A stretch of 64,000 nt of DNA, taken from Segatella hominis (GTDB lineage Bacteria > Bacteroidota > Bacteroidia > Bacteroidales > Bacteroidaceae). The notes under the pieces are model-generated. The model was not told where the DNA came from. It made no database searches and saw only the letters and a program-made list of their open reading frames with translations. The stretch lies in assembly GCF_019249725.2 (NCBI RefSeq), contig NZ_CP137559.1:2625501-2689500 (forward strand). The letters run 5' to 3'. The translations under genes and the position numbers were made by a program. Shown here in pieces: positions 42,689 through 61,532 of this stretch. Position 1 is the stretch's first letter; the number at the start of each line of letters is the position of its first letter.

Positions 42689-42708
42689 TTCTAATCTAAA
42701 CTTAAGCG

Positions 42709-42882: not shown

Positions 42883-42914
42883 CCCTCGATATTTCAACTA
42901 AAAACAGAATTCAG

Positions 42915-43856: not shown

Positions 43857-43876
43857 AATTAGGCAAAGAAAAAATC

Positions 43877-43920
43877 GAGGGGCGCAACCATCATGATGAC
43901 GGTCGTGCCCCTCTTCCTTT
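43877..43920. terminator. Terminator after the DUF3298-type lipoprotein gene
   Basis: GAGGGGCGCAACC (43877-43889) pairs with GGTCGTGCCCCTC (43901-43913) with one mismatch and one G:T, then TTCCTTT on plus. It also separates the convergent NigD-like gene. Confidence 0.8.
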
Positions 43921-43946
43921 CCTCATACACAATATATAAAATATCA

Positions 43947-44663: not shown

Positions 44664-44781
44664 ATTACTTTTATTTCATTAATTTTTCTCGTATCTGTCT
44701 TATAAACCAAATGTTTGGTAAATCTTGCGTCATAATACGCAAAAGAAAGTTAAAAGGGTAGTCAGATACATTTTATTTCTG

Positions 44782-44789
44782 TATATTTG
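44782..44789 (+). promoter_or_regulatory. -7 element for the NtrC-type regulator
   Basis: TATATTTG fits TAnnTTTG and lies about 88 bp before the ATG at 44877. No good -33 element is seen. Confidence 0.4.
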
Positions 44790-44876
44790 CAATTCAAAAC
44801 AGTACCAATATAATAAGGAATAGCACTCCAACATCATAAGGAGCTGCACTCCGGAAGAGAAAAAGATTGTAACAGC

Positions 44877-46319
44877 ATGGCTAAAATATTGATAGTAGAA
44901 GACGATTTAGCTTTCGGAACCATGATACAGACATGGCTCAGAAAAAAGGGATTCGAGGTTGAAAGAGCGACTTCGGTGAAAGCGGCATTGCATTTTTTTG
45001 AAGACAACAGTCACTGGGACTTGGTCTTGTCCGACCTCAGACTCCCGGATCATGATGGGCTCACTCTTCTGCAATGGCTCAAAAAAAACGATTACTCCAT
45101 TCCTTTCATCGTCATGACCAGCTATGCAGAAGTTCAGAATGCTGTTCTCGCCATGAAATCGGGCGCTACTGATTATGTTGCCAAACCTTTCCATCCAGAC
45201 ATCTTATTAGAGAAGATTCAGGAGGCATTGAAAGCAGGTAAACAAGCACAAAATGATGGTAAGAGCGAAGAACGAGGAGTCAGACGCCAAGATTCTTCAT
45301 CTGCTGAAGATGAAAGCGCTTCTTCTGTTTCACAAAGAACAAAGAGCCAGACTAACCGTTCTTCGGCTGGGGTTTCCTCAGAGACCTCTAATAATCAGGA
45401 TGTTCCGAAATATCTGGAGGGAGAAAGCGAGGCTTCCAGAAAACTGTACGATTTTGTTTCGCTTGTTGCCCCTACTCCTATGTCTGTCCTCATCCTCGGA
45501 GCCAGCGGAACTGGTAAGGAATATGTGGCTCACCGCATCCACGATCTGAGCCAACGGGCAGGAAAACCATTCTTTGCGCTCGACTGTGGAGCCATTCCGA
45601 AAGACGTAGCTGCATCAGAATTTTTCGGATACACAAAGGGAGCCTTTACCGGTGCTGATCAAGACAAGAAGGGCGCTTTTGAAATGGCTAATGGCGGCAC
45701 ACTCTTCCTGGATGAAATGGGAAACCTGAACTACGAGGTGCAGGTACAGTTGCTCCGTGCTCTTCAGGAACGGAAGATCCGTCCTTTGGGAAGCACCAAG
45801 GAAATAGACATCGACATCCGACTCGTATGTGCAACCAATGAAAATCTTGCCCAACGAGTGGCTGAAGGCAATTTCCGTGAAGACCTTTACCATCGCGTCA
45901 ATGAGTTTACGATCTATATGCCTGAGTTGAAAGACCGCGGAACAGACCTCTTCCTCTTTGCAGACCTCTTTATAAAAAAGGCCAACAAAGAGTTGGGACG
46001 CCAGATATTGGGACTGGACGGGAAAGCCAAGGAAAGAATTGCATCCTACAACTGGCCTGGTAACCTGCGAGAACTCAACAACGTGATGAAACGTGCCACC
46101 CTGCTTGCCAAGGGTGACTATATCAGCGTGAATGAACTCGAACAATGCATGAGTCAGATTCAGCCACAAGCCCCTATCACCTTGCATGATGAACAGACAG
46201 AACTGCAACGCATAGAAGCAGCCATAAAAACAGCAGGCGGCAACAAAAGCAAAGCTGCGCAACTGCTTGCTATAGACAGGAAAACTCTCTATAACAAACT
46301 CAAGAAATACGGGTTGTAA
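44877..46319 (+). CDS. NtrC-family sigma-54-dependent response regulator
   Basis: A 480-residue activator. The receiver covers residues 1-118 with the phosphoacceptor Asp53 (LVLSDLRLPDHDG) and Lys near 104 (AKPFHPD). A Ser/Glu-rich linker runs to about 170. The AAA+ domain has Walker A GASGTGKE, the sigma-54 contact loop GAFTGA (TKGAFTGADQ) and Walker B GTLFLDEMG. A Fis-type helix-turn-helix is at the C-terminus (GGNKSKAAQLLAIDRKTLYNKL). GAFTGA is intact, so it should drive RpoN promoters. No kinase is adjacent. It ends 120 bp before the eight-gene GTPase/cytoskeletal operon, and a sigma-54-like site lies at 61349-61365. Confidence 0.93.
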   Translation: MAKILIVEDDLAFGTMIQTWLRKKGFEVERATSVKAALHFFEDNSHWDLVLSDLRLPDHDGLTLLQWLKKNDYSIPFIVMTSYAEVQNAVLAMKSGATDYVAKPFHPDILLEKIQEALKAGKQAQNDGKSEERGVRRQDSSSAEDESASSVSQRTKSQTNRSSAGVSSETSNNQDVPKYLEGESEASRKLYDFVSLVAPTPMSVLILGASGTGKEYVAHRIHDLSQRAGKPFFALDCGAIPKDVAASEFFGYTKGAFTGADQDKKGAFEMANGGTLFLDEMGNLNYEVQVQLLRALQERKIRPLGSTKEIDIDIRLVCATNENLAQRVAEGNFREDLYHRVNEFTIYMPELKDRGTDLFLFADLFIKKANKELGRQILGLDGKAKERIASYNWPGNLRELNNVMKRATLLAKGDYISVNELEQCMSQIQPQAPITLHDEQTELQRIEAAIKTAGGNKSKAAQLLAIDRKTLYNKLKKYGL

Positions 46320-46353
46320 CCTATCTTATGCGTTAAAGAAATAAAAAACAAAG

Positions 46354-46382
46354 CCTCGCAAACCAAGTTTGCGAGGAATAAT
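46354..46382 (+). terminator. Terminator after the response regulator
   Basis: CCTCGCAAAC and GTTTGCGAGG form a perfect 10-bp stem with a 3-nt loop, followed by AATAATTT. It separates the regulator from the next operon. Confidence 0.75.
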
Positions 46383-46413
46383 TTGGCATGTCTATTTTTT
46401 TTGGTTATTTTTG
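46382..46413 (+). promoter_or_regulatory. Consensus promoter of the eight-gene operon
   Basis: TTTG (46382-46385), 20-bp spacer, TATTTTTG (46406-46413), placing the start near 46420 and a 20-nt leader. The same stretch contains TTTGGCATGTCTATT, which shares 14 of 15 bases with the sigma-54-like site at 61348-61362, but a -12 GC is missing here. Confidence 0.75.
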
Positions 46414-46439
46414 CACAAAAGACATAAACATACCTTATT

Positions 46440-47882
46440 ATGATGAATATATTCAACATAAAAAACTTGTTATTTGCAGCCATGATGCTCTTGACAAGTT
46501 CAAGTTTCACATCTTGTGGAAGCTCCGATGAAACCAGCATGCCACAACAGATAAAGCAGTATTTTGACAAGGACATCACTTTAAAGAATGCCGGCAATCA
46601 TACTTCTGCTTACTTTGACCTCTCTGATGGTGTAGTACTCGCATATAAGAACAAAGACGCTGCCAGTTTTCTGAATGCTACTGTTCAGAAACTTACCAGT
46701 AATGATTCTTGCCAGGTATTCTCGCTTGCAGACGACAAGATTACTCCCTTGAAGCTGAAACAGACCAAGCTATACAACAAAATCATGGACACCGGTTCGT
46801 ATGTCCAGCAAATGGCTCCTATCGAAAAGACACTCGACAAGATAGTAAGAGACGGAAAAAGCAGTCTATTAGTTACAGATTTCGAGGAATTTACCCCAGA
46901 CAGACAAGTCCAGCATCAGAGTTTCGCTACCCGTTATTTCACCAATTGGCTGAAACAAGGTAACGACATCACCTTCTTTGTCTTCGATTTCATCGGCGAA
47001 AGAAATATTCCTTATCACTTGTATTTCATCGTGTTTGACAACAAGAGCCACCAGTTCCTCAACAAGATCAAGGAATCCGCAGTGGGCATTACCGGTTATC
47101 AGGAATTTCATCTCTCCACAGATGCTTATTCCGTCTCCACATCCTACCCTTCCGCTTCACAGGGCGGCAACTATCATGATGCAGAAACAGGCGAAGACCT
47201 CGTAACAGGCGTCATGGAGGACGGAAGTGAGACAGCCTACACCAATTACGGTCAGGGAGCCCGCTTGGAATATTATCCGTTAGGCGTAAGTTGGGAAGAT
47301 GCGCTGAAGAACTCAGAAGAAGCCAAGCAGGCTGGATTTAATCCAAGATATACGGCATTATTCCGAAACCTTTTCTTCGACTTCAGCAATCAGGATTCTT
47401 ACATCATCAAGAAACTTGCAGTAAAAGTGACCGATGTAGAAGAAGATTTCCAACAATACGCCTTATATCAGAAGGTTCTTGCCGACAAAGAGAAATCAGC
47501 CTCCTATTATGATGAGAATGGAAAGATTCTCGCAGAATTTGACTACAAAGAGAATCAGTCAAAACCTACGGAAATCAAAGACTTGCTGATACTGGATCAA
47601 GACTTATTTGCCCAAAGCATGGCTCAAAGTAATGGCAAGAAGGCAGAGATAGGCATCATCTTCTCACCTCAATTTAAAGGAAACATCATTGGGGGCGAGC
47701 AAGGAGACCTTCTCCGCATTGACGTAACCATAGCAGAAAGTCAGCCCAACCTTTCTGCCCGTTTGGATCAGCTTTTCTCATGGGGAGCCAATAATAATCT
47801 CCGAGATGCCATCCGGAATACCCTGCAAGAGTTGAACCCTGTGGGAACGGTTATCTACACCTATTTTGCCAAAGCATTATAG
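46440..47882 (+). CDS. Operon gene 1: lipoprotein with VWA-like fold
   Basis: A 480-residue lipoprotein. The signal ends SFTSC (Cys26), then a Ser/Asp-rich tether. The mature protein has strands and helices that fit a von Willebrand A-like fold: AYFDLSDGVVLAYKNKD (a degenerate D-x-S MIDAS start), a later SLLVTDFEEFTP and FFVFDFIGERNIPYHLYFIV. A second beta-rich region fills the C-terminal 200 residues. It would sit outside the inner membrane, while most partners are cytosolic. First gene behind the operon promoter. The VWA assignment is inference from pattern. Confidence 0.6.
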   Translation: MMNIFNIKNLLFAAMMLLTSSSFTSCGSSDETSMPQQIKQYFDKDITLKNAGNHTSAYFDLSDGVVLAYKNKDAASFLNATVQKLTSNDSCQVFSLADDKITPLKLKQTKLYNKIMDTGSYVQQMAPIEKTLDKIVRDGKSSLLVTDFEEFTPDRQVQHQSFATRYFTNWLKQGNDITFFVFDFIGERNIPYHLYFIVFDNKSHQFLNKIKESAVGITGYQEFHLSTDAYSVSTSYPSASQGGNYHDAETGEDLVTGVMEDGSETAYTNYGQGARLEYYPLGVSWEDALKNSEEAKQAGFNPRYTALFRNLFFDFSNQDSYIIKKLAVKVTDVEEDFQQYALYQKVLADKEKSASYYDENGKILAEFDYKENQSKPTEIKDLLILDQDLFAQSMAQSNGKKAEIGIIFSPQFKGNIIGGEQGDLLRIDVTIAESQPNLSARLDQLFSWGANNNLRDAIRNTLQELNPVGTVIYTYFAKAL

Positions 47883-48013
47883 TTTTACCAAGATATGATA
47901 GATTTTATCAAAGACATGATTGACTATAATAAAAGATTTAGTGTCTTCATCATATTTTAGATTTAAAATCATCATAAAAAATAAAGATTAGAAAATTAAA
48001 AAACTCAAGAATA

Positions 48014-48361
48014 ATGAACGCAACAGTTGCTTCTGCCTACATGATAGGCGCAATTACCTTCGTGGTCAGCATCATATTGGCCATCGCCATTGCCAACGGA
48101 ATCCGATATGAGGCCGGAATTAATCCCCAAGATAAAAGAAAGAGAAGAATCTGGTTCTGGATTTTAGCCATTCTCTGTCCGATAGCCATCATGACTATCT
48201 GTTATTTCGGAGCCTATACAGACATTAGAATTCCTTCCAGAAGAGATGCTTATCTTGCTGCCATGGCCATATCTTCAGGACTCTTTTGCATAGCTTACAT
48301 CGTATGCGGCTTTATCCTCAGCAAAAGTTTTCCACACGGAAAACTATCCAGTTGGTTCTAA
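48014..48361 (+). CDS. Operon gene 2: small three-helix membrane protein
   Basis: A 115-residue membrane protein with three predicted helices: about residues 7-28 (YMIGAITFVVSIILAIAIAN), 46-66 (IWFWILAILCPIAIMTICYF) and 82-103. Short basic loops (QDKRKRR, PSRRDA) suggest a cytosolic positive side. No family is recognised. It is preceded by a 131-bp AT-rich gap without a clear promoter and followed 58 bp later by the tubulin-like gene; the short word AATGAAGCCC is duplicated in that gap. It may anchor the cytosolic NTPases. Confidence 0.7.
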   Translation: MNATVASAYMIGAITFVVSIILAIAIANGIRYEAGINPQDKRKRRIWFWILAILCPIAIMTICYFGAYTDIRIPSRRDAYLAAMAISSGLFCIAYIVCGFILSKSFPHGKLSSWF

Positions 48362-48419
48362 GAGAAACGCTGAAGGAAACAAAGAAATGAAGCCCCTATC
48401 AACAAAACAATGAAGCCCT

Positions 48420-50075
48420 ATGAATAAAATATTTATAATAGCCATTGGCGGAACTGGCATGAGATGCTTGGAATCTTTCGTACATCTCTGTGCCATGGGT
48501 ATGTTTGACAACAAGACCATAGATATCCTCACCTTGGATACAGACCAGAGCAATGGAAATAAAGACCGGGTAGAAGCACTCATCGATCTGTACAACAAGA
48601 TCAAGTCGGATGATGCCAACCAAGTCAACGGAGGTAATCCGAATGCCAAAACCTTCTTCTCGGCAAAGATAAATCTATATCGCTTTTATACCGTATATGG
48701 AGAAGGCAACAGAAAGACCTATAAGATTCTTTCTGGTGTAAACAGCGGACTTCACAAAGAAGAAAACACCGATTTGACAGACCTCTTCTTTGATGATGAT
48801 TCCGTACAGAGTTTCGAGTTGTCTCACGGTTATCGTGCCCAGACCCACCTCGGTTCTCTGCTCATGTATCATGGCATCATCGAAGCCGCACGCAACATTT
48901 CCAGAAATGGCGAGAGTGCATCCAATGCAGAAAAAGATCTCAGGAATTTTCTCGATTCACTCCTGTCAGAACAAAGTTCAGCCCGTGTTTTCGTTTTCGG
49001 TTCTATCTTCGGAGGCACAGGAGCCTCATCTATACCTGTCATTCCCGTAGCGCTGAGAGATGCTATCAATATACTTTCTGATGGCACCAAGACTTTGGAC
49101 GCTAACATGGTAAAATTCGGTTCTACCCTCCTGACCGACTACTTCACCTTCACGGCTCCAGACAGTCTGCAGAAGGATGAAGACAAGGTAATCGCCGACT
49201 CCAATAATTTTGCCCTCAACTGTCAGGCTGCCCTGCAGTTCTATCAGGCAGACCCTACCGTCAGAAGCACCTACAAGCGCTTCTATCATATCGGTTGGCC
49301 TTTTCCACCGCTCTACGTGGGCAATCAAGGCAAGACCATTACGGGAGGAAGAGCACAAAAGAACGCATGTCATGTAGTAGAACTGATGTGCGCCTGTGCC
49401 GCATACGATTTCTTCCACTTGCCAGCAGAAGAACTCAACAATGAGTCGGCCAAATACCTCTACCGCTCTTTTGAGGAGAAAGATGGACAAGTCTATCTGC
49501 ATGGTACAGATTTCATCAACAATGGAAATCTCTTCGAGAGCAAACTCGGTTCGCTCTTCTCACTTGCCCATATCATTCTCTCCCAATATGATGCAGCCTG
49601 GACAGATGCAGAAGGCTCAGGAACGAAGGGGCTTCTCAACCGATTTGCCCAGCAGAACATTCACGACTACGACAGCATCACCAACAACCAGGCCAAGAAT
49701 CTGGACGAGTATTTCAGAGACTACTTCGGCTATCATTTTGGCATAGAAGGCAATATGCAGAAGGGTTGGATTTATCAGATTAAGGAGTCCGTTCCGGGCA
49801 GATTCATTTTCGTAGATGAAGCCTTCAGAGAACAGCAGAAAGAGATGAAGAATATCAGTTGTGGACATCTGTTTGAGGACGAGAAGCACAACTGGAGCAA
49901 ACTGTCAGGCATCTTCAGCAAGAAAGACAACAGTGTGGATGTGCTCATCAAGAACATAGGCGAAGAAAAGACGAAGCCTACGACTGAGCAGAACGTACAG
50001 ACCACCAAGGAGAAATTCCTTGCCCACATCCACAATGCCATCACCATCAACCAGAACTTCAACGAGATAAAATAA
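48420..50075 (+). CDS. Operon gene 3: tubulin/FtsZ-like GTPase
   Basis: A 551-residue protein of the prokaryotic 'tubulin-like' group (Tubulin_2-type). The N-terminal Rossmann-like motif IIAIGGTGMRC (residues 6-16) matches the first nucleotide loop, TLDTDQSN follows strand two, and FVFGSIFGGTGASSIPV (about 191-207) is the tubulin signature loop in a GGTG-A-S-S form. It is longer than FtsZ, with extra helical insertions and a C-terminal Lys/Glu-rich tail. It probably binds GTP; polymerisation is not proven. It lies 7 bp before the Hsp70-like gene. Confidence 0.75.
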   Translation: MNKIFIIAIGGTGMRCLESFVHLCAMGMFDNKTIDILTLDTDQSNGNKDRVEALIDLYNKIKSDDANQVNGGNPNAKTFFSAKINLYRFYTVYGEGNRKTYKILSGVNSGLHKEENTDLTDLFFDDDSVQSFELSHGYRAQTHLGSLLMYHGIIEAARNISRNGESASNAEKDLRNFLDSLLSEQSSARVFVFGSIFGGTGASSIPVIPVALRDAINILSDGTKTLDANMVKFGSTLLTDYFTFTAPDSLQKDEDKVIADSNNFALNCQAALQFYQADPTVRSTYKRFYHIGWPFPPLYVGNQGKTITGGRAQKNACHVVELMCACAAYDFFHLPAEELNNESAKYLYRSFEEKDGQVYLHGTDFINNGNLFESKLGSLFSLAHIILSQYDAAWTDAEGSGTKGLLNRFAQQNIHDYDSITNNQAKNLDEYFRDYFGYHFGIEGNMQKGWIYQIKESVPGRFIFVDEAFREQQKEMKNISCGHLFEDEKHNWSKLSGIFSKKDNSVDVLIKNIGEEKTKPTTEQNVQTTKEKFLAHIHNAITINQNFNEIK

Positions 50076-50081
50076 TCGTTT

Positions 50082-53000
50082 ATGAGTACACCATTAGTCA
50101 TCAAGGTTAAGACAGCCTCCATACCTACCAGTACCGTAGGCTGCTGGCAAGATCTCTCGGGAATGATCGAACAGTTCACTGCCGACATCATCACCCCTGC
50201 CATAGATCAGGACTCAGATATCAGTGCCCAAGTATCAGGCATTCCTACCGCATACGCACGCGCCAACCTCTTCAAGTCGGCATTACAATCATACGGAAGA
50301 ACGAAAGAAAACATTGACCTCAACATGAATGCTTTCTACAAGATGCTTTCCTCTGAATGGCGCGGTTTTCTTGCCTGCATAGCCCTCGACTATAGCAGAA
50401 TCAAGACCGAGGTTGTGGAATTATCCTATTCCGACGGCAAGGACATTCTTTCCACGGCCAATCTCTATGAGCCTAAAGGAACCTTCGGCAACATGCTCTT
50501 CCATCGCAAACCGCTATGGTGCTTGAGAGAGGAGGATACTGACGAACTGCATCGAGGCATTCCTTTCATCGAAATCATCAAGTATGATGGACAGGTGGTT
50601 GGCGCTACTTCACCAGAAAGCCTGCTCTTCACGGCCTGTTCATATAAAATCAAGGAAACAGAAAACCGCCCATGGGTGGATTTCAAGACCGGAAAGTTCA
50701 AGGACCCGCTGGAAACTTGTGATTTGGAAAACACCCAGACATTACAACTCTATGCCTATGTAGATTATCTGATAGAAGGAATCAACAACGATGGGAAGAC
50801 AGGCATTAATGGTTTGGCAGCATACTATGCTCATCTTGATAGCAGTTTAGCACCCAAATATGACAACCTGCTCAGCAATCTCATCGCATGGAGAAAGGAA
50901 ATACAGGACTACGCCGAGAAGAAAAACTTCAAGTTGGAAACCGCCAGTGTTCCACCTATCAATATCTTCCACCGCCCATTCGATCGTGCCTTCAACTACA
51001 AGGACGAACTCTATGCCTTGGATGGTGTATTATATGCATCATCCCAGGAGAATAGCGTACTTTGTAATCCGAAGGAATTACTGTTGTCGGATACAGCCAA
51101 AGTAGCCAGACTGATTTTCAAAGGTCCTTTCAAGCACGAGCCAAGTAAATTCCCTATTCACGTATTGGTAGCCAACAAGAAGAATGAGCCGAAAGAAAAA
51201 GCATATTTTGCACTTCCACTCAGCGAATTAGGCATCAAGGCATTCGGAAAAAACATCGGAGCACTGGTAGAATCCACCACCTCCAGAGCCAATATACCAT
51301 CCAGGTTGACTGCAGTCTTTGATCCGGATGCAGAGAAGAACAATCTGGAAGTAACCCTGCACCTGGAACTCAACGACGGTAAGACCAAGGAAATGAAAGC
51401 CACCTACACATGCGGAGGAGAAATCGACGGCAAAGACCTCATCATCTGGCCAAATTTCATCTCCCCGAAATGGCACCGATACTTCCTCTATTCAGAATTG
51501 CCACACAACATCAACCTGAAAGATTATCCTTTCCAGGCTACACCTTTTGTGGGCGAAGAATGGGAACAGACGGAATCATCCCTGCATATTGTAGCCGACA
51601 GTGCCACTGCCGACAATCCCTACAAATACGAAATCTATGAATTCAACCGTCCTTTCAAGGGCATCAGACTGCAAGTGCCAGGTGGCGAAGAATCGGGCTA
51701 TCTGCTCATCAGATATACGACCACTACGGAAATTCCGTATATTGCACAAGACAAAATGGGCATTCAGGACAATTCCCTCCGCGGCACTACATTGGGCATT
51801 GACTTTGGAAGCACCAATACATCCATCGCCTATCTCGACCCGCTTGACCAACAGGCCAAGGGAATCCAGTTCACCAACAGAAGAATCTCTCTGTTGCGGG
51901 CTGGCGAAGACAATGACGACAAGGCTGCCAATGAGAACCATCTGTTCTTCTTCCAGTCTAACCCATTGTTGTCCAATGCCATCAAGAGTACATTAACGCT
52001 CCACGATTCCAGACGCGTAGCAAAAGATACGAATGAGAGCCAGGATATTTCCAAGTTTGAGAAAGAAGTGAAGGGCGGATTCCCTTGTTTCAGTCTCAAC
52101 CTGCCATTGGCTCCAATAGCCCCTACGCCTCGAATCATCAAATTACAGACGGCAGAATGCGGATTGATAGAGCAGAGCTATAATATGAAATGGGATGATG
52201 ACGAACGCAACATTGCTTACAAGAAAGCATTCCTGCGCTCCCTGCTGCTTCAGGTCTATGCCGAACTGTTCGTAAAAGACCTGTTCCCGAAGAAACTGAA
52301 ATGGTCGTACCCATCATCCATGAGCGAAAGCCTGTTGCGCAACTACAACACCATCTGGAGCTCATTGCCAACCGTCAATCCTCTGAATGATGTATGCCAG
52401 CATAAGCCAGTCATCACGGATCCGCAATACCAGCTGAAGGTTTCCACCTTCGGATATAATCTGCAGACAAACAATTCTGCCTATCAGGCGACAGATGGCA
52501 CAAACCAGACCTTGGGAAATGTCGGAAACCCATTAGGAGGCTTGAACGGTTTGGGAAATATTGGAGGAATTGCAGGAAACGGTTTGGGAAATATCGAAGG
52601 ACTCGGAGGAAACAGCTTCCTGGGAGAAGCTTCAGTTCCACAGCAAGACTTCTCCAACAATGCTTTCCTGGAAAACAATCAGAACATTCTGTCAGAAACC
52701 AGCAAGAAGCACGAAATCGTTCTGGAAAAAGACGATGATACAAAAACATTCTCCTTCAACCCGATCAAGATGGTAGATGAGAATGATTTTCAGAGTATGA
52801 CAGAGGCCTGTGCCGTTGCCAATTATCTCAATGTAAAGGCAGATGACAGAGATGCGCTCACCGTCTGTTTCGACATTGGCGGAAGTACAAGTGACATTTC
52901 TGCCCTGTGCCAACTGAATACACCAGAAGGCTCGCGCCTGACCATGATCAAGCAGAACTCCATCCACTTCGCTGCTCAGCTGGTGGGTGAAGCAACTCGC

Positions 53001-53954
53001 TATTGCCCAAACTTCAAGCGGGTTCTGCTCAGCACCTGCGAGGAATTCGGATTGAGAATACAAGGTCTCAACTTGGGAGCCAACAGGTACAGTCCTGATA
53101 CGGCAAGCTACTATTTCGAACAGATGGTGGACAGACTGAATGCCGCTCAGCTCCCGTTCTTCTACAAGAAGATCAGCTCAGACTGTAGCGAACTGCTCTG
53201 CGCAGATATTTATGTCACGGGCCTGATTACCTACTATGCTGGACTCCTGACCCGCAAGCTCATCAAGCAGGTGAGAAACTCTACCGAGTGCAGATGGACA
53301 GGCGATAAGAAACCGAAGGTACTCATCACTTTTGCCGGAAAAGGCGCAAGAATCATGGAATGGTTGGGCGTTGCCACCAATAACGACCTGGCTACGCAAT
53401 TCTATCAGGCCATGTTTGTCAAAGGCTTGGGTCAGCAAGATGCAGCCTCGTTCATCTCTGCCCTGGAGATTGCCTTCCCTAAGAGCATTTCCAACGATGT
53501 TAAGTTTGAAGTTTCCAAGGGATTGGCGATGGAGTCAACCACGCTCATGCGCCCTAAGGATTGCCAACCAATAGAAGTCATCGGAGAAGAAGGATTCACC
53601 ATCGAGAACAAACTCGGGCAAGTGCTTTCATTGGATGCCGACAACAGTATTACGGCAGACATGATGTCGTGCTTAGGAGACAAGTTCTATGGCAGTTCAT
53701 CCGCCGGTCCTCGATTCCAGGATTTCCTCGGACTGTTCTTGCAGATTACCCAGCAATATTTCGGTCTGCGCATGAACCCGAACCAAGTACAGGATGCACT
53801 CCAGAACATGGGACTGCTCAGTTTCATCAAGGAGCGTCCAGAGTTTCTGCATGCCAAACGGGCTGAGGAGTTCGACTTCGTGTCACCTATATTAATATTA
53901 GAAGGACTCAAATTCTATGAGGACTTCCTGTTGGGAAATATGGGGCAAGACTAA
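50082..53954 (+). CDS. Operon gene 4: giant Hsp70/actin-like ATPase
   Basis: A 1290-residue cytosolic protein. Residues 1 to about 560 are a large, mostly beta region without a recognised family. An Hsp70/actin-type ATPase core follows: phosphate-1 TLGIDFGSTNTSIAYLD at about 568-585, phosphate-2 VCFDIGGSTSDISAL at about 925-940 and the adenosine motif ITFAGKGARIMEWLG at about 1082. A Gly/Asn/Leu-rich insert (about 812-845) lies inside the core. No Hsp70 peptide-binding domain or J-protein is seen. Strict Asp/Gly residues for nucleotide binding are kept, so ATP binding is likely. Translationally close to the tubulin-like gene (6-bp gap). Confidence 0.8.
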   Translation: MSTPLVIKVKTASIPTSTVGCWQDLSGMIEQFTADIITPAIDQDSDISAQVSGIPTAYARANLFKSALQSYGRTKENIDLNMNAFYKMLSSEWRGFLACIALDYSRIKTEVVELSYSDGKDILSTANLYEPKGTFGNMLFHRKPLWCLREEDTDELHRGIPFIEIIKYDGQVVGATSPESLLFTACSYKIKETENRPWVDFKTGKFKDPLETCDLENTQTLQLYAYVDYLIEGINNDGKTGINGLAAYYAHLDSSLAPKYDNLLSNLIAWRKEIQDYAEKKNFKLETASVPPINIFHRPFDRAFNYKDELYALDGVLYASSQENSVLCNPKELLLSDTAKVARLIFKGPFKHEPSKFPIHVLVANKKNEPKEKAYFALPLSELGIKAFGKNIGALVESTTSRANIPSRLTAVFDPDAEKNNLEVTLHLELNDGKTKEMKATYTCGGEIDGKDLIIWPNFISPKWHRYFLYSELPHNINLKDYPFQATPFVGEEWEQTESSLHIVADSATADNPYKYEIYEFNRPFKGIRLQVPGGEESGYLLIRYTTTTEIPYIAQDKMGIQDNSLRGTTLGIDFGSTNTSIAYLDPLDQQAKGIQFTNRRISLLRAGEDNDDKAANENHLFFFQSNPLLSNAIKSTLTLHDSRRVAKDTNESQDISKFEKEVKGGFPCFSLNLPLAPIAPTPRIIKLQTAECGLIEQSYNMKWDDDERNIAYKKAFLRSLLLQVYAELFVKDLFPKKLKWSYPSSMSESLLRNYNTIWSSLPTVNPLNDVCQHKPVITDPQYQLKVSTFGYNLQTNNSAYQATDGTNQTLGNVGNPLGGLNGLGNIGGIAGNGLGNIEGLGGNSFLGEASVPQQDFSNNAFLENNQNILSETSKKHEIVLEKDDDTKTFSFNPIKMVDENDFQSMTEACAVANYLNVKADDRDALTVCFDIGGSTSDISALCQLNTPEGSRLTMIKQNSIHFAAQLVGEATRYCPNFKRVLLSTCEEFGLRIQGLNLGANRYSPDTASYYFEQMVDRLNAAQLPFFYKKISSDCSELLCADIYVTGLITYYAGLLTRKLIKQVRNSTECRWTGDKKPKVLITFAGKGARIMEWLGVATNNDLATQFYQAMFVKGLGQQDAASFISALEIAFPKSISNDVKFEVSKGLAMESTTLMRPKDCQPIEVIGEEGFTIENKLGQVLSLDADNSITADMMSCLGDKFYGSSSAGPRFQDFLGLFLQITQQYFGLRMNPNQVQDALQNMGLLSFIKERPEFLHAKRAEEFDFVSPILILEGLKFYEDFLLGNMGQD

Positions 53955-54008
53955 CAGACACTGTTCATGACAGAGCTCGAAAAACAGAACAATGAAGAAT
54001 GAGTAGAA

Positions 54009-56033
54009 ATGAATAAATCATATATCATATCCATTTCCCAGGAAAGCATCAGACTTTATGGGGGAAGATTAGAAGACAATGGCTCTTACACCGTATTGAA
54101 AGTAGGAACTTTGAATACGGTGGAGGAACTTTTTGCCGTAGATGAACTCAAAGAAAACAGAACAGACATTCATCTCGGTCTCATTTTCACCCCTTCGTTC
54201 CCTTCGGAAGACAAAGAAAAAACCAAAGAAGAAATCAGACAACGGGGATTTACCCAACTGCAGGATTATTCTTTGGAAACCTATATCTGCCACCACATCA
54301 AGGGACATTCATACGCACTGATTCTCTCTGCAGATACAGACGATTTAGTCCTAGAATATGTAGAAACAGTCCATGGGAAAATACTCGCTTCCACTACGAT
54401 TGCCGGTGCAGGAAAAGACCCGAGAATAGATGTCTTGTCAGAAGTCATCTGGAAAAAACTCGTCTCTGAATCCAGCTATCTGAACAAAGAAGATGCCGCA
54501 GAAATCATCAGAGACACAGCAAAACGTTTTTTAGATTCCGGGAAATCAGAGTTGGAAGATTGCATCACCTTAGAGGGAGAAAGACATGATTTCTTCGTAA
54601 GAAGACGGGATGCAAATATAGACAATTTGCTGGACTACGGAAGCAATACTCTATTGTCACAACTCAGTCTTTTTGCCCAGCAGATCCATCTCGACAGGGC
54701 AAACACCATCATGCTGATGACAGGTAAGTTGGTCAATAACAGCTACTTCCACGACATCCTCAATGGATTCACCTCAGACATCAAGGATATTAACGAAGAG
54801 TGGCTCACAACCATTCTTTCCTCCGTGATGAATGATTTGCAAGGCATCAACTTCTCTCATGCAGACAGTGTGGGCATAGACGGGCTGCCACTCCAGAACA
54901 TCAAAGTAACACCCCGCGACACTTCCATCTTCTTCGACATTACCTTCCCTAAAGGAGTCAGTGCGATAGAAATCAGAAGAAACGGAAAGCTGATAAGCAG
55001 CATCACCGACTCCCAGTTCCGCGATACAGAATTGGTTCCAAGCCACAACTACCAGTATAGTTTCACCTTGGTCTTCAAGGACGAGAATGGATACGAGCAG
55101 AGGGCAGAGGAAAGCAGGATGGAGATTGCCACACTCTGCAAGCAAATGCCTGTACCCACTCATCTCTGCATTCAGGAGACAGAGGAAAATGCCATCATCA
55201 CCTGGGACAATCCAGCAGAAGGGGTAGTAAAGATTTATCAGTCCAACCGTCCTTTCCCACTGCAGAAGAACGACATCATCCAAGACATCAGTTCGCTTGA
55301 TTACACCATGTTGACGGCATTAGGCAACAAGTATCAGGTAAAGAAAGACTACTGTGGTGAGCGCTTTTTCATCCCAGTAACGATTGTTGACAATATCGGC
55401 GTAGCTGGCGAACAGAAAAGCATCCTTTCCATGGAGGCACCCAAAGGCATCAGAATAGACTCTACAGACGTCAACCATATCAAAGTCGTTTGGATTTGGA
55501 ATGATGTTCATACTGTCAGAATCAAATGGAAAGTGGAAGACGGAAACGAAAAGTGGAAGGATATCGTGAATGACGGACAGGAACCGGAATTCGAAATTCC
55601 CGTACCTGGAAAATCACGCAGTCTCTCTGCCTGCGTCACAGCTTTGTATCAGAAGCGCGACGGCACATGGGTGGAAAGTGAAGAAACCCAACTCAAGGCT
55701 AATCTCTCTGCCATCAAGGTAAACTTCATCAGTGCCAAGAGCGAGGCAAGATTTTTCATGCACAAGGACGAATACACCCTGACGCTCCAGGCTGAAAGCG
55801 AACCGCCTTGCGACCTGTATGTGCTGATAGGAGAAGGAACCATTCCGCTCGACCTCACCAATTTCAAGTCACATCTCACCATCCATCATGAGGACTTGGA
55901 GGCAGGAGCAGAAAAGAAGTTTCCGCTCACTTACCGACGCTTGCAGAAAGGCCAGCCGCTCTTTTTCAGAATCATCGCTGCCGACCGGAGTATTCCACTC
56001 AAGGTAGTACCAGAAACTCAAAAACTCAAATAA
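54009..56033 (+). CDS. Operon gene 5: degenerate actin-like front with fibronectin-like domains
   Basis: A 674-residue protein with no signal peptide. Residues 1-250 have the strand/helix order of an Hsp70/actin lobe (ISISQESIRLYGGRLED, ALILSADTDDLVLEYVET, then NTIMLMTGKLVN in place of an adenosine loop), but the phosphate-binding DxG motifs are missing. From about residue 290 there are three or four beta-sandwich modules resembling fibronectin type III (ITPRDTSIFFDITFPKGVSA-like start, YQYSFTLVFKDENGYEQRAE and others). It may be a structural partner of the Hsp70-like ATPase. The actin link is inference. Confidence 0.6.
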   Translation: MNKSYIISISQESIRLYGGRLEDNGSYTVLKVGTLNTVEELFAVDELKENRTDIHLGLIFTPSFPSEDKEKTKEEIRQRGFTQLQDYSLETYICHHIKGHSYALILSADTDDLVLEYVETVHGKILASTTIAGAGKDPRIDVLSEVIWKKLVSESSYLNKEDAAEIIRDTAKRFLDSGKSELEDCITLEGERHDFFVRRRDANIDNLLDYGSNTLLSQLSLFAQQIHLDRANTIMLMTGKLVNNSYFHDILNGFTSDIKDINEEWLTTILSSVMNDLQGINFSHADSVGIDGLPLQNIKVTPRDTSIFFDITFPKGVSAIEIRRNGKLISSITDSQFRDTELVPSHNYQYSFTLVFKDENGYEQRAEESRMEIATLCKQMPVPTHLCIQETEENAIITWDNPAEGVVKIYQSNRPFPLQKNDIIQDISSLDYTMLTALGNKYQVKKDYCGERFFIPVTIVDNIGVAGEQKSILSMEAPKGIRIDSTDVNHIKVVWIWNDVHTVRIKWKVEDGNEKWKDIVNDGQEPEFEIPVPGKSRSLSACVTALYQKRDGTWVESEETQLKANLSAIKVNFISAKSEARFFMHKDEYTLTLQAESEPPCDLYVLIGEGTIPLDLTNFKSHLTIHHEDLEAGAEKKFPLTYRRLQKGQPLFFRIIAADRSIPLKVVPETQKLK

Positions 56034-56085
56034 AATCATTTGAATTCATAGAATCATCTGAATCATCAGAACAAATAAAATCATT

Positions 56086-57273
56086 ATGCCAAAAATAGTT
56101 TGTCCATATTGCTTTGAAGAATTCAACAGAAGCGAAGTCATGTTCCGTTGCACCAACGATGACTGCGAGAAACTGATGGACCTCAAGCTTTCCCATTTCT
56201 GGGGACAAGACCGCAAGATGCTGCCATTCGTAGAAAATCAGCTCGGTTGGATTGCCAAGAAGTTGGATTCCATGCCCGACTCTGCCGACTGTCCTCGCTG
56301 CGGCCATACCACTTATACGGTAATCTGTCCGCATTGCCACAATGTGATTCCCAAGGAAATGGTAAAGAATAAAGGTTATATTATTTCCATCATCGGAGCA
56401 CGAAGCAGCGGCAAGACCAACTATATCACCGTGCTCATCGACCAACTGCGTAAGTATGGCAGCAAGCTCGGCAACTTGGGAGTATTGGCCTCCACCGTAG
56501 CTGATGAGCGCAAAGACTGCACACAGGTAAGATACCAGACTGATTTCTACGACATCCTCTTCAAGAGAGGCATTCTCCCGGCACAAACCAAGATAGCCGA
56601 CCAGAAGTCCAAGATTCCGCTCATCTACACCATCACCCAAAAAGGTGTCAAGAATCCCCTCTACCTCGTGTTCTACGATACGGCAGGCGAGAATTTCAAC
56701 GACCCGAAGAACATCAGCAAGAATGTGAAGTTCCTCGACGAGAGTGATGCTGTCATCTTCCTCCTCGATACCTTCTCCATTCCTTATATTCACGAGAAGC
56801 TGAACATGAAGGGAGAAATCGAACTGAAATATGATGTCATTCTCAACAACATCATAGACCATTTCGCCAATGGAGACAAGAAGAAGAAAGAAGCTCATTT
56901 CAAGAAACCGATGGCTTTCGCATTCAGCAAGATAGACACCATTCTGCAACATAGTGAAGAATTGGCAGACACTTCCATTCCAGGCATGTCGATAGACCAG
57001 AACAGTCCTTATCTGGAAGGCGGAGGTATTCAGATGAGCGACATCGAAACCGTAAGCGACGGACTGAAGAGTGCGCTCTGTTCCTGGCACGAGGACGGAT
57101 TCGTCAATAATGCCGAGAACCATTATAAGAACCTGAAATTCTTCGGTTTCTCTGCCTTGGGCAAATCCCCAGAGACAGACAATCACATCTCAGACATCCA
57201 GCCTTACCGGGTGCTGGATCCGCTGGTATGGATTTTAGACCAATTTAAATATCCGCTTCTAAAGAAGAAATAA
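56086..57273 (+). CDS. Operon gene 6: zinc-ribbon P-loop GTPase (double-GTPase-2 type)
   Basis: A 395-residue cytosolic protein. Two zinc-ribbon halves come first: CPYC (6-9) with CTNDDC (22-27), and CPRC (69-72) with CPHC (81-84). A TRAFAC-like GTPase follows with Walker A GARSSGKT (104-111), a Walker B/switch II YDTAGENF near residue 199 and SKID near 280 in place of NKxD. This layout matches what is called Double-GTPase 2, from memory. It lies 1 bp before the next gene. A related GTPase ends operon gene 8, so the system contains a pair. Confidence 0.7.
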   Translation: MPKIVCPYCFEEFNRSEVMFRCTNDDCEKLMDLKLSHFWGQDRKMLPFVENQLGWIAKKLDSMPDSADCPRCGHTTYTVICPHCHNVIPKEMVKNKGYIISIIGARSSGKTNYITVLIDQLRKYGSKLGNLGVLASTVADERKDCTQVRYQTDFYDILFKRGILPAQTKIADQKSKIPLIYTITQKGVKNPLYLVFYDTAGENFNDPKNISKNVKFLDESDAVIFLLDTFSIPYIHEKLNMKGEIELKYDVILNNIIDHFANGDKKKKEAHFKKPMAFAFSKIDTILQHSEELADTSIPGMSIDQNSPYLEGGGIQMSDIETVSDGLKSALCSWHEDGFVNNAENHYKNLKFFGFSALGKSPETDNHISDIQPYRVLDPLVWILDQFKYPLLKKK

Positions 57274-57274
57274 G

Positions 57275-58480
57275 ATGAAGACAATCCAGTTTCAAGAAAT
57301 CATAGAATGCTCCAGCCAGCAGTCTCTGCTGACTGGGCAGGCAGGCTTTGGCATCAGAACCCTGACAGAGGGGATGAATTACGAACTTGCCCGCAGCATT
57401 TGCGAACAGGAGAATTTCGCCTACGAAGTGGGAGTTGCCAACCAGTTGACCCTGGAAGACATCACCCAAGACGCCTCCATCACCCGTCAATATCCACGCA
57501 CTCTGAAATATCTTGTTTACCCAACAGACAACGGAGAAACCAAATACATCGTTGCCTGTACCACTTATATTGGTATAGACTATGGTTATTTCTGCCAGCA
57601 CAACTCAGCCCAAAGAGCTGGAACCAATTACATCGCAGACATTCTCGTTTTTGATGAGGAACCAGATATGCAGCTTATTTCCCAACTCCTCGAACAGGAA
57701 AAATTCTTACCCGTTGACAACACCTGCACACCCGACAATCCGGAACTCCAGGCATTGCTCACTGGTGAACCCGCTTATCTGAAACCGAGGGAAATCACCG
57801 TTGGAGAAAAGCAGCATGGGGATGAGGAAGGCTTTCATGCAAAAGAAAACATCCATATCAACGAACAAACTGCACTGGTTGCTATCGCCCTTCTCCAGGC
57901 TAAACTCAACGAAAGGACACTGCAAGATGCCAGTCTGCAGAAAATCGTCTTCCAGGCAAGAGAAGCCAAGATTCCGTCCATCCTCAGAGATTTCTCCATA
58001 CTTCCAGACGAGTTGACACATGGAAAATATTTCCAGACCAATTATCTGCAGGGATATGGAATGCCCCATGGTTACCAGATGATTTTCCTCAACGAGCATA
58101 ATCAGGAAGAAGTTTATATTGACAACTACGTCTATGCCAATCTGGACGATGAGAGCTTCAGAAATGTAGATACAGAGAACAAATGCTTCCTGCAAATCAG
58201 GAAAGCAGCAGAAAACGATGATTATCAACAATTCCAAAAACATCTCGAAATCATCTGCAGCCTCATCGCAAACCCTCAGAATTTTGAGGATAAAGATTGG
58301 GAATTGACGATTGACCCAGAAACTGGATTGCCAGTAATCATAGATATCAGAGACGAGGAAGACGAGAACGAAGAATCCGAAAACAAGGAATCTGAGAACG
58401 AGAATTCCGAGAGCAAGAAAGACCTCAGAAAGCATGGTGGTTTTTGGAAAGCGCTCAAAAAGAAACTGTTCAAACAATAA
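57275..58480 (+). CDS. Operon gene 7: GTPase-associated protein with amphipathic C-terminal tail
   Basis: A 401-residue protein. The first about 200 residues resemble the N-terminal domain of GTPase-associated protein 1 (SQQSLLTGQAGFGIRTLTEG and YEVGVANQLT, then YIADILVF), which is normally paired with double-GTPases. The middle is helical (ALVAIALLQAKLNERTLQ). The tail has a 25-residue Glu/Asn/Ser-rich acidic spacer, then GGFWKALKKKLFKQ, a short basic amphipathic helix of the kind that targets proteins to membranes. Translationally coupled to the GTPase upstream. The family call relies on recall and needs a profile search. Confidence 0.55.
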   Translation: MKTIQFQEIIECSSQQSLLTGQAGFGIRTLTEGMNYELARSICEQENFAYEVGVANQLTLEDITQDASITRQYPRTLKYLVYPTDNGETKYIVACTTYIGIDYGYFCQHNSAQRAGTNYIADILVFDEEPDMQLISQLLEQEKFLPVDNTCTPDNPELQALLTGEPAYLKPREITVGEKQHGDEEGFHAKENIHINEQTALVAIALLQAKLNERTLQDASLQKIVFQAREAKIPSILRDFSILPDELTHGKYFQTNYLQGYGMPHGYQMIFLNEHNQEEVYIDNYVYANLDDESFRNVDTENKCFLQIRKAAENDDYQQFQKHLEIICSLIANPQNFEDKDWELTIDPETGLPVIIDIRDEEDENEESENKESENENSESKKDLRKHGGFWKALKKKLFKQ

Positions 58481-58513
58481 CAGGAAACTGTTCAACCCCT
58501 AAAGATAGAGAAC

Positions 58514-60943
58514 TTGAAATATATCAAAATATATCTGATCACCCTCATGGCACTCCTCCTTGCCGCATGCGAGTCGGAGAAAGCACCCTCCTTCATCAAG
58601 GGAAATCCTTATGCCAAAGAATTTGCAAGACTCAACGGTCCTGTAAAATCTGCTGTATATTCCTATTATAAAAACGGAAAGTTAGACTCCTCCATCCAGA
58701 ACGACTATTCCACGGAAGGAGTTCTCCTGAAGAGCAAGACCCTTGTGAGGGGAGATTCCATCGTCATTCATTATACCTATGATCCTTACAACAACATCCA
58801 GGATATGAATGGCACCGGGATTACCGACTATCGGGCAGAATACAAGAAGGGTACCTTGGTCAAGGAATGGCTATATAGTGACAAAAAGAAGAAAAACGGC
58901 ATTACCAACCGATACAAGATCAAGGGAGAAACCCTGATCAAGAAGGTGAATGACATCCGGACGGGTGCCGGCACCACCTACACCTATTCTTATAATAGCC
59001 GGGGACTGGTCAAGGCAGTGGAAACCATGGTAAATGACGGTTCTTACTGCCTGTATAGTTATGATGAAAAGAATCATCCTGTCCTCATCGAATATTTCAC
59101 ACCCAAGGGAAAACCAGACTATCAGGTTCATATCTCCACAAAGTATGACTCCTACGACAACTGCATCCAGTATGTCTCCCGCCGAGATGGGAAAATCACG
59201 GAGGAAGCAAGGATACGCTACAAATACTATAGCGAGGAAGAACTCCAGCAGTCCAAGCTGCAGGCAGAATCTGCCATTACCAATAGCAGCATCATCCGCC
59301 ATGCCTATTCCTCAGAGCCTACGCCGCCCAGCACAGGTCTGATGGCAGCCATCATCCTCTGCACCGCCTTCTTCCTGACGCTCTATATATCCTATGCCCA
59401 GAAGCACTGGGGACTGTTCCGGAATTTCGGAGGAAAAGTAGAATACAATGGCATGAGAAAGATGTGGATGTATAATAGCGAGCCTTACGTGAAGATGGCT
59501 ACCATCTTCACCTCCATCATCGGCGCCTTCCTGTCCTCTATCCTCGTTCTCCTGCTCTTTGGCGGCATTACCTGGTTTGTCTTTTGGATACTCAACCTCA
59601 TGCTTTGGGGCTTGATCATCATCGGCTGGATAGTCTTGGTGATAGGTGTCATCCTCCTGCTGTTCCGCAGATTCTATGGAATAGCCGGCATCCTCGTCGG
59701 CGGCATTCTCGTCCTGTTCAGCGACACGTTGAAAGACTGGGGCGAACAGTTCATCCAGACTGGCAGCGACTTCATGGATAATGTGAATGCACTGGACTGG
59801 ACTCTATCCATCTTCCATACATACGGACGCCTTATCCTGCTCGTCATTGCTGCCCCGATAGCCTGCTTTCTGCTTCTCGCACTCGCACTCATCCTGTTCA
59901 GTTATGTCCTGCGCCTCATCGAGTTTGCAGCCATCAAGGCCTATAATGTCCACCGCCCATGTCCGGTCTGCGGCAATAAGAAAGACTTCTCGTATATCGT
60001 AGAAGGAAAGGTTTATCCGATAGAATTGAAACCGGGCGTCTATGGCATATTCCATCAGACAAACCACCATACTCATGTGAGAGTACCCACCATGCTGGTA
60101 AACGGAAAGGCAAAACTGACAAGAAAATGCCAGCATTGTCAGCAGTTCACCAATCTCTCTCACGACAAGTCCTGCGGCACCGATCTCCACATCGGCATTG
60201 TGGGCGAACGCTCATCAGGCAAGTCCTACCTGCTCTATCGCGGTTTGGAACTGTTGAGCCAGAGATTCGGCAAAGCCTTCCAGCAGGTTGATGTGGATGG
60301 CAACCAGAAATGGGAGATGATGGCGCAACGCATCCATCAGGGTGAAGGCATCCAGACGGCAGTGAAAAACCGTTACAAAGCGATACAGATTCGTCTGAAA
60401 CTCAAGTTCCGTCCTATGCCTTACCAGTTGTTCTTCTATGATGTGGCTGGTGAGAAATTTAATGTGAACATGGCCAAGACAACCTCTGCATTGGAATTCT
60501 ACACCAATGTGGGCACCATCCTGTTTGTCATCGACCCAAGCATGATAGACATTCAGAAGTGCTCCCCTTCTCCTGCATTCGAAGATTGGCATAAGAAGCA
60601 CAGCAACCCATCAGAGAACTACGATATGGAGGCGACGCTCTCCACGCTGAAGGACATTATCCTGCAAGTAGGTCGTAAGACCCAGGACATAGATCTCATC
60701 GTGACATGCACCAAGAAGGATTTAGGTTATCTTGAAGCTTGCCACTATCCTTATGAATGTGACGAACAGAAGCTCAGGAGATTCATCAAGGAAGAATTAG
60801 GACTCTATAATCTCGACAATGCCATCAACAATGGGTTTAAATCCGTAGGATACGCAGCCGTCAGCACCCAGAATGCAGACAAGACTTCATTGGAGCATCT
60901 CTTCCTGAAAGTGCTGAAGCAGAGGGGAGGCATACAATTATAG
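58514..60943 (+). CDS. Operon gene 8: membrane-spanning lipoprotein fused to a zinc-ribbon GTPase
   Basis: An 809-residue protein with a TTG start at 58514 (no ATG gives the signal peptide). Lipobox LLAAC puts Cys at 19. A periplasmic region of short YD-like repeats follows (YTYDPYNNIQ, YTYSYNSRGL, YDSYDNCIQY; about residues 30-250). About five membrane helices span residues 275-465. The C-terminal cytosolic part has zinc-ribbon cysteines CPVC (about 482) and CQHC (about 540), Walker A GERSSGKS (564-571), the switch-like FFYDVAGEKFN and TCTKKD as an NKxD equivalent. It links an outer sensor-like region to an inner GTPase. Last gene of the operon. Confidence 0.7.
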   Translation: MKYIKIYLITLMALLLAACESEKAPSFIKGNPYAKEFARLNGPVKSAVYSYYKNGKLDSSIQNDYSTEGVLLKSKTLVRGDSIVIHYTYDPYNNIQDMNGTGITDYRAEYKKGTLVKEWLYSDKKKKNGITNRYKIKGETLIKKVNDIRTGAGTTYTYSYNSRGLVKAVETMVNDGSYCLYSYDEKNHPVLIEYFTPKGKPDYQVHISTKYDSYDNCIQYVSRRDGKITEEARIRYKYYSEEELQQSKLQAESAITNSSIIRHAYSSEPTPPSTGLMAAIILCTAFFLTLYISYAQKHWGLFRNFGGKVEYNGMRKMWMYNSEPYVKMATIFTSIIGAFLSSILVLLLFGGITWFVFWILNLMLWGLIIIGWIVLVIGVILLLFRRFYGIAGILVGGILVLFSDTLKDWGEQFIQTGSDFMDNVNALDWTLSIFHTYGRLILLVIAAPIACFLLLALALILFSYVLRLIEFAAIKAYNVHRPCPVCGNKKDFSYIVEGKVYPIELKPGVYGIFHQTNHHTHVRVPTMLVNGKAKLTRKCQHCQQFTNLSHDKSCGTDLHIGIVGERSSGKSYLLYRGLELLSQRFGKAFQQVDVDGNQKWEMMAQRIHQGEGIQTAVKNRYKAIQIRLKLKFRPMPYQLFFYDVAGEKFNVNMAKTTSALEFYTNVGTILFVIDPSMIDIQKCSPSPAFEDWHKKHSNPSENYDMEATLSTLKDIILQVGRKTQDIDLIVTCTKKDLGYLEACHYPYECDEQKLRRFIKEELGLYNLDNAINNGFKSVGYAAVSTQNADKTSLEHLFLKVLKQRGGIQL

Positions 60944-61010
60944 AGGAAGAATCAGGACAGTCTTTGGCAGAAAATCTGTTGTAAACGTGGATAGTGACTT
61001 CTGGAAATGT

Positions 61011-61201
61011 TTTTGACCTAAAATGACCATGACCAAATGACCGCTTTTTCATCTCTTCGAAAAAAGCTTGTTCCCCTAAAGGAAAAAAGTTGGTCTTAAT
61101 AGACGACTCATCTTAGTCTTAATAGACGATAGGCGCCGGTCATCAATAACGACCCAAATAAGGGTCCCCGGTCATTTGGTCATGGTCATTTTGGGTCAAA
61201 A
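61011..61201. repeat. 33-bp near-perfect inverted repeat with a 125-bp core
   Basis: 61011-61043 (TTTTGACCTAAAATGACCAT...) is the reverse complement of 61169-61201 except at one base. Inside the core GTCTTAATAGACGA occurs twice. There is no gene. It may be a miniature inverted-repeat element or a large hairpin. It is part of the 589-bp gene-free stretch 60944-61532, which also holds the TTCCACA array and two TATTTTTG words. Confidence 0.8.
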
Positions 61202-61220
61202 TCATTTCGGGTTTTAGCTA

Positions 61221-61448
61221 TTCCACACCTTTTTGGGGAAATATTCCACACTTTTTCCACACTTTCCACACACTTCCACACATCTTATTTTTGGCGCAAG
61301 AACAGATAACACGTTATCTATCAACCACTTACAATTTTCTTCATATTTTTGGCACGTCTATTGTGATATATTTAAGCGAAGACGCAAACGAACTGAATGT
61401 TCCTCAAAAAGACAGGAAATTCCACAAAGAGAAAGGAAAATTCCACAA
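61221..61448 (+). repeat. Phased TTCCACA array (seven copies)
   Basis: TTCCACAC occurs at 61221, 61244, 61255, 61264 and 61274, with starts 23, 11, 9 and 10 bp apart. TTCCACAA occurs at 61420 and 61441, 21 bp apart. The near 10-bp phasing puts copies on one face of the helix. The word resembles part of a DnaA box (TTATCCACA) but lacks the central TA. It may bind a regulator of the small exported protein gene. Confidence 0.6.
61344..61365 (+). promoter_or_regulatory. Overlapping TATTTTTG and sigma-54-like -24/-12 site
   Basis: TATTTTTG (61344-61351) fits the -7 element. Overlapping it, TTGGCACGTCTATTGTG (61349-61365) matches the sigma-54 form TTGGCACGnnnnTTGCW except at the last two bases. 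Transcription from the latter would start near 61376, about 155 nt before the ATG at 61533. Confidence 0.45.
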
Positions 61449-61532
61449 AAAAGGGGACGAAAAGTACATAAGGCGCTTCACAAAAGAGAAATAAATAAAA
61501 TAATATATTCACAAATTAAAAACATAACAATT

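Follow-up and report, generated by a model that had tools for sequence, protein, structure and literature searches.

The locus described here is a run of eight genes (g1–g8, positions 46440–60943, forward strand) in a 64,000-nucleotide stretch of Segatella hominis DNA (contig NZ_CP137559.1, positions 2,625,501–2,689,500; hereafter the window), and the closest described systems fall into two families. Makarova and Koonin reported in 2010 operons in which tubulins of the FtsZl1 type accompany VWA, GTPase and OmpA genes, and proposed for them a role in membrane remodelling; the species they aligned in a figure include Bacteroides caccae (PMC2875224). Kaur et al. predicted in 2020 that DO-GTPase/GAP1 systems are conflict systems near the membrane (PMC7159879). 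According to the accessible part of that article the tubulin and HSP70 themes are non-overlapping, the former being found in firmicutes and actinobacteria, while GAP1-N2 systems occur primarily in phyla other than Bacteroidota and TerD is mentioned once, as a possible nucleotide-binding domain. Three further points in the literature bear on the locus: the Ter network has been proposed to block entry of phages or xenobiotics (PMC7824862), ZorAB of the Zorya system serves phage defence as an ion-driven motor that binds peptidoglycan (PMC11890865), and a role in membrane stress has been predicted for a DO-GTPase (PMC11237479).

With the FtsZl1 operons the window operon shares a Tubulin_2-type protein, a P-loop GTPase and, more tentatively, a VWA-type protein, and its relatives add OmpA-family and kinase genes. 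It differs in having a fixed core (VWA-like, transmembrane [TM], tubulin, Hsp70 and Hsp70/FN3 proteins) with exchangeable modules, which the available text of the 2010 paper does not describe; Hsp70, DnaK and TerD each have no occurrence there (PMC2875224). With the GAP1-N2 systems it shares two zinc-ribbon DO-GTPases, one of them with TM and extracytoplasmic parts, as well as GAP1-N2, FNIII, tubulin or HSP70 partners and, again tentatively, vWA. Unlike those systems, as far as they are covered in the accessible text (PMC7159879), it combines tubulin and HSP70 in one Bacteroidota operon, its GAP1 is reduced to the N2 domain and a tail, and TerD takes the alternative place in sister loci. The original prediction, made from the letters of the window without database searches, had already likened the operon to double-GTPase conflict systems, and the DO-GTPase2 domains, the GAP1-N2 matches in relatives and the FN3 repeats bear that likeness out. 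The best reading is that the operon represents a Bacteroidota variant within both published families, uniting themes reported as non-overlapping. No published description of the core-plus-module combination was found in the literature searched, which lay mostly outside subscription journals and preprints.

A conserved five-gene core

The search for related loci yielded 32 genome loci, giving 33 regions with the window. By record title 30 of the 32 are Bacteroidota, the others being labelled Saccharibacteria (L009) and Chlorobiaceae (L025). Clusters corresponding to the first five genes recur in the same order. Of the 33 regions, 32 have the tubulin, 30 have Hsp70, 29 the TM protein, 28 the VWA-like protein and 23 g5; some of the missing calls reflect contig ends. 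Scattered, non-conserved neighbours had been named at the outset as the result that would speak against the original prediction, and the order g1–g5 is instead conserved. Together with the eight open reading frames on one strand, this order upholds the proposed eight-gene run (46382..60943). The intergenic gaps from g1 to g8 are 131, 58, 6, 54, 52, 1 and 33 bp, and the genes presumably form a single transcript. Nearly all of the predicted domains held up when tested. An NCBIfam scan gave sub-cut-off matches only. With near-copies and fragments left out and L001 omitted throughout, the alignments retain 22 of 25 loci (A1), 18 of 21 (A2), 23 of 27 (A3) and 21 of 28 (A4).

The first gene, g1 (46440..47882, + strand), specifies a lipoprotein, with Cys26 following a hydrophobic start, and a VWA-like fold with a degenerate metal ion-dependent adhesion site (D60, S62, G64, D147). 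The predicted lipoprotein start thus stands; the VWA assignment, for which structural scores are moderate, is the least firm of the domain calls, and the g1 profile had no match in the PDB. Several lineages have a counterpart which, by eye in alignment A1, starts with a TM-like stretch in place of the lipobox. The product of g2 (48014..48361, +; cluster c2, in 29 of the 33 regions) is, as foreseen, a small membrane protein, of 115 residues with three TM helices predicted from hydropathy.

Gene g3 (48420..50075, +) encodes a relative of tubulin and FtsZ that belongs to the Tubulin_2 (FtsZl1) type. Its own match to Tubulin_2 (PF13809) lies below the cut-off (E 3.6e-5) and that of its counterpart in L045 above it. 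The loop FGGTGAS fits the GGGTG(S/T)G type of FtsZl1, and G198–S204 are invariant over the 22 rows of alignment A4; together these bear out the tubulin-like GTPase of the original prediction. The profile also matched 3zid (Tubulin/FtsZ, GTPase; E 0.57) in the PDB. An identical (100%) protein occurs in L001, a Prevotella metagenome-assembled genome, and the matches on plasmids (6 records) are distant, all below 60% identity. Two other readings were rejected: a phage-borne tubulin, none of 50,697 phage records having matched g3, and housekeeping cell division, given the patchy distribution.

The 1290-residue product of g4 (50082..53954, +) has an Hsp70/actin-like ATPase in its C-terminal half, preceded by some 560 residues without assigned fold. 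Phosphate-1 (DFGSTN) begins at 574 and phosphate-2 (DIGGST) at 931, and D574, F575, G576, S577, N579, D931, G933, G934 and T936 are invariant across 24 rows; the profile matched Hsp70s exclusively in the PDB (best 4gni, E 0.0043), as one would expect had the ATPase been correctly recognized. In g5 (54009..56033, +) the model shows an Hsp70 nucleotide-binding-domain fold (residues 1–285) with degenerate nucleotide loops, followed by FN3-like domains (about 290–674) that match FN3 arrays (Foldseek, 2.2e-13), supplying the FNIII component of GAP1-N2 systems and agreeing with the actin-like/fibronectin protein that had been proposed. The link to Hsp70 comes from the fold alone: profile comparison gave no link between g5 and g4, and the five weak PDB matches of the g5 profile were judged spurious. 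A g5 of 97% identity belongs to a sequence cluster with 1918 members.

A diverged subfamily in the same genus (L047–L052) has the order exported-looking protein (about 400–500 residues), small TM protein, tubulin-like protein and Hsp70-like protein (about 1140–1180 residues); the diverged-type operon of L055, which belongs to a different family of the order, lacks the small TM protein. Cyanobacterial plasmids, of Picosynechococcus and Gloeothece (loci L071:10482-15897 and L072:8511-13906), have a small TM-like, then a tubulin-like, then an Hsp70-like gene, with values in a test set of 31 proteins of 9e-45 and 5e-45 for tubulin and 1.5e-25 and 2.6e-23 for Hsp70. Five diverged Hsp70-like proteins were checked, three from the subfamily and two cyanobacterial; each has phosphate-2, as DIGGGT(S/T)DI or DLGGGTSDI, and none has the phosphate-1 pattern. 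Neither in the subfamily nor in the cyanobacteria did the profiles of g1 and g2 match the corresponding proteins (best E 0.063 for the first-gene protein and 0.013 for the small TM protein); in the subfamily the presumed counterparts are equated by position and size, and in the one case of L050 also by a DASAS motif seen by eye. In L022 (11639-18280) the tubulin and Hsp70 genes are separated by several small genes and by two that by eye resemble AAA-type ATPases.

The GTPase/GAP1 module and its substitutes

Both predicted zinc-ribbon GTPases carry DO-GTPase2 (PF19993) above the cut-off, with CxxC pairs and, after the Walker B DxxG, the glutamate of DTAGE or DVAGE. They are g6 (56086..57273, +; 8.8e-7; GARSSGKT, DTAGE, SKID) and g8 (58514..60943, +; 4.7e-10; GERSSGKS, DVAGE, TKKD). 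The latter begins as a lipoprotein (Cys19), so that with g1 the operon has the two lipoproteins originally counted, and its hydrophobic stretches (272–296, 326–407 and 431–476) suggest a periplasmic part and a TM region ahead of the zinc ribbons and GTPase. Between them lies g7 (57275..58480, +), a short GAP1 with a GAP1-N2-type N-domain and a basic C-terminal tail. In the Pfam scan g7 itself had no PF20013 match; relatives of 48–51% identity do (L002, at 1.4e-4, below the cut-off, and P0154, at 51% identity), as does L016 (1.9e-7), and the family is annotated for 5 of 35 homologues, P0154 among them. This indirect evidence would place g7 in the GAP1-N2 type and so accommodates the GTPase-associated protein of the original prediction. 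At 401 residues, as against 745–807 in six relatives, it lacks the GAP1 middle and C domain, the middle being a gap in alignment A5. In the sister loci L002 and L016 the middle and C-terminal parts of the longer GAP1s had no further Pfam match. Among the 35 homologues (P0131–P0165) GAP1 ranges from 320 to 624 residues, and the six that were read keep the N-domain and basic tail. In L059, L060 and L061 the gene after GAP1 is g8-like.

Hidden Markov models of the clusters were applied to 69 regions (L001–L068 and the window, several being the same place fetched again). The GTPase/GAP1 module was found in eight loci (the window, L002, L003, L016, L017, L018, L027 and L029) and TerD or TerD-like genes in 15 (L004–L014, L020, L021, L025 and L045), L069 being a further TerD-like locus found later. 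No locus has both, TerD being absent from all eight GTPase loci. In L025 and L045 the TerD-like genes are linked to TerD through hhalign (probability 82, E 1e-5); those of L045 had no such match in Pfam. Loci with neither module carry a kinase (L028), a GYF/TPR protein (L031) or a fused Hsp70 (L015), and several loci end too early for assignment.

When 37 tubulins, 35 of them different, are placed on a tree, the GTPase label requires three changes, at least two of them forced by starred branches, and a single clade of GTPase loci is rejected by the approximately unbiased test (p-AU 2.5e-5); L027 sits on a long branch, and the groups were defined from the same loci. Since the GTPase loci are not monophyletic, the modules have been exchanged or replaced.

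The nearest genome, G001, which carries the L001 contig, has two cores: a window-type one (L046) and, on another contig (L045:723-12591, G001:C4), a TerD-type system of VWA-like, TM, tubulin, Hsp70, 896-residue, TerD-like, TerB-like, TerD-like and CW_7 proteins. Contigs of the window type in this genome align with window positions 40372–55002 (98.7%) and from 60954 on (97.2%), breaking inside g5 and just after g8. Because the assembly lacks everything between these two breaks, the window-type core alone is demonstrated there. Searches of this assembly (59% complete) found no g6 or g8, and the one DO-GTPase2 match, below the cut-off, lies in a gene that by eye resembles an ABC transporter.

Promoter and flanking genes

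Upstream of g1 lies a promoter-like site, TTTG-N20-TATTTTTG (46382..46413, +), which fits the Bacteroidota promoter consensus and on which the originally proposed start, 46382, falls. It is preceded by a gene for an NtrC-type response regulator (44877..46319, +; Pfam) whose cluster, c20, is present among the 33 regions only in the window and L001. Since its linkage is limited to the near-identical L001 and L046, the regulator is probably outside the system. Candidate sigma-54 sites, one mismatch allowed, number 14 against 13.9 expected, so that control of the operon by this regulator is unsupported; 16 candidate terminators, against 17.2 in shuffled sequence, are likewise no better than chance. 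Among the 32 loci the window shares its flank clusters c17–c20 with L001 only (they are not in L002 or L003), and at 1e-120 only G001, of 40 relatives, has either flanking regulator, so that no empty site was available for comparison.

Farther 5' (32382–41317) are genes for cell-surface sugars (a glycosyltransferase, a flippase, LicD and an epimerase) and for two DUF6080 proteins. About 1 kb separates the operon from the next genes 3', and repeated phrases, such as GGTCATTTGGTCATGGTCATTTTGGGTCAAAAT, occur there (60960–61500). In the L003 genome (L060:2973-10700) Cas9 and Cas1 genes lie 3' of the TM DO-GTPase on the same strand, a single case.

Possible function

We rather favour, as somewhat probable, a mobile, envelope-spanning, NTP-driven system of the conflict type, probably directed against phages or membrane attack. 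TIR-like proteins occur in five of the eight GTPase loci, one of them above the Pfam cut-off: in the L027 operon (L059) a TIR_2 protein (PF13676, 4.1e-7) comes after GAP1 and a DO-GTPase-like TM protein whose PF19993 match (3.1e-4) lies below the cut-off. The other four, L016, L017, L018 and L029, which are near-copies of one another, have two extra genes, for a protein of about 545 residues (as tested in L056, a weak TIR match at 0.0028 and a 2TM-effector match in PADLOC at 9.4e-4) and a MORN protein of about 400 residues (MORN 2.2e-34; weak TIR matches at its start, 0.03, in G063 and G065). The eight genes of the window operon themselves include no visible effector, variable or otherwise; the original prediction had likewise seen no toxin, which holds for these eight genes, and TIR-like proteins appear in sister operons. 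The distribution is patchy. Matches at 1e-5 were found in 12 of 60 relatives, four close (G001, G046, G052, G053) and eight distant, all eight within the genus; a close copy occurs in one of 36 genomes of the genus (G001), and at 1e-20 six of 392 genomes in the phylum survey match, two closely. On an IMG/VR contig (L069:2935-17443), probably a mobilizable element, a TerD-type core adjoins genes for a relaxase (5.7e-30), an integrase (6.3e-21) and a helix-turn-helix protein.

Under such a conflict reading the operon would be a switchable alarm of the envelope: g1 and the periplasmic part of g8 would sense envelope disturbance, and g2 and the TM region of g8 would carry the resulting signal into the cell. 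Paired with GAP1, the two DO-GTPases might act, following the published proposal, as a nucleotide-timed switch that sets a threshold, and the tubulin-like and Hsp70-like proteins, judging from their families, could assemble or remodel a membrane-proximal structure on a g5 scaffold. That structure would block or reshape the membrane, or recruit an output. The output itself would be swappable: TIR-like proteins in GTPase operons; TerD, TerB, TerC, calcium-pump and peptidoglycan-binding parts in TerD loci; and ZorAB-like proteins in a diverged cousin. Exchange of the output is supported by the tree; in the window operon the GTPases and core may themselves be the effector.

A rather less probable alternative dispenses with an enemy: the operon would be an accessory machine for envelope stress or membrane remodelling, in which the VWA-like protein senses damage, filaments of the tubulin and Hsp70 proteins reshape or patch the membrane and the GTPases time the cycle. 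The lipoprotein starts and TM stretches of the operon suit it, as do the genes that follow the core in TerD loci, for OmpA (L007, 2.8e-14), CW_7 (L006, 1.3e-5) and a P-type cation ATPase after the TerD module in four loci (L008, 19609-21654; L009; L010; L011), and it accords with both the remodelling role proposed for FtsZl1/VWA/GTPase/OmpA operons (PMC2875224) and the predicted part of a DO-GTPase in membrane stress (PMC11237479). Against it stand the patchiness, the module exchange, the mobile-element neighbour and the TIR-like additions, and because of these a conflict system fits better than housekeeping.

The genes of the TerD loci raise a second alternative, which we consider improbable, that of a Ter-like metal or calcium stress system whose TerD has been replaced by the GTPase module. 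Beside the same core and its VWA-like protein, relatives carry TerD (3.6e-43 in L006), TerC (7.2e-48, 256 residues, after the TerD module, in L021), a TerB-like gene just below the cut-off (9e-5 in L045) and the P-type pump. The proposal that the Ter network blocks phage or xenobiotic entry (PMC7824862) also speaks for it. The window operon itself has no TerD, TerB, TerC or pump, and TerD is missing from all eight loci with the GTPase module. Canonical Ter operons are not known to contain the tubulin/Hsp70 core. That the genes are unrelated neighbours brought together by chance, for which the 131-bp gap between g1 and g2 and the non-conserved upstream regulator might be cited, deserves virtually no credence, since the same order recurs in loci of many families with clusters in 23–32 of the 33 regions, which refutes it for g1–g5 and for g6–g7, and g8-like genes recur after GAP1.

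Beyond the conflict reading of the window operon itself, the loci suggest that systems filed apart, FtsZl1, DO-GTPase/GAP1, Ter and perhaps ZorAB, share one core. The last enters through L048 (1976-11774), where two genes downstream of a diverged tubulin/Hsp70 operon resemble Zorya genes, one of them ZorB (3.4e-11) and the other, weakly and in its coiled-coil part, ZorA (2.8e-4); neither is in the window, and ZorC, ZorD and ZorE were not looked for. We tentatively raise the possibility of a general chassis for envelope immunity, in which a fixed signalling core, made up of a VWA-like sensor in the periplasm, a TM relay and a tubulin–Hsp70 assembly, would accept DO-GTPase/GAP1 (with or without TIR), Ter/calcium or ZorAB-like stator outputs. 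For the FtsZl1 tubulins of 2010 and the DO-GTPases of 2020 functions have been predicted, none of them experimentally tested in the literature found; a compact operon joining both themes, whose close relatives pair this core with a different output, opens the question to experiment, in that modules can be swapped or deleted to learn which threat each answers. If the chassis exists, the FtsZl1, DO-GTPase, Ter and Zorya families would be joined in one modular network, and bacterial relatives of tubulin and of actin/Hsp70 would be given a joint role in immunity.

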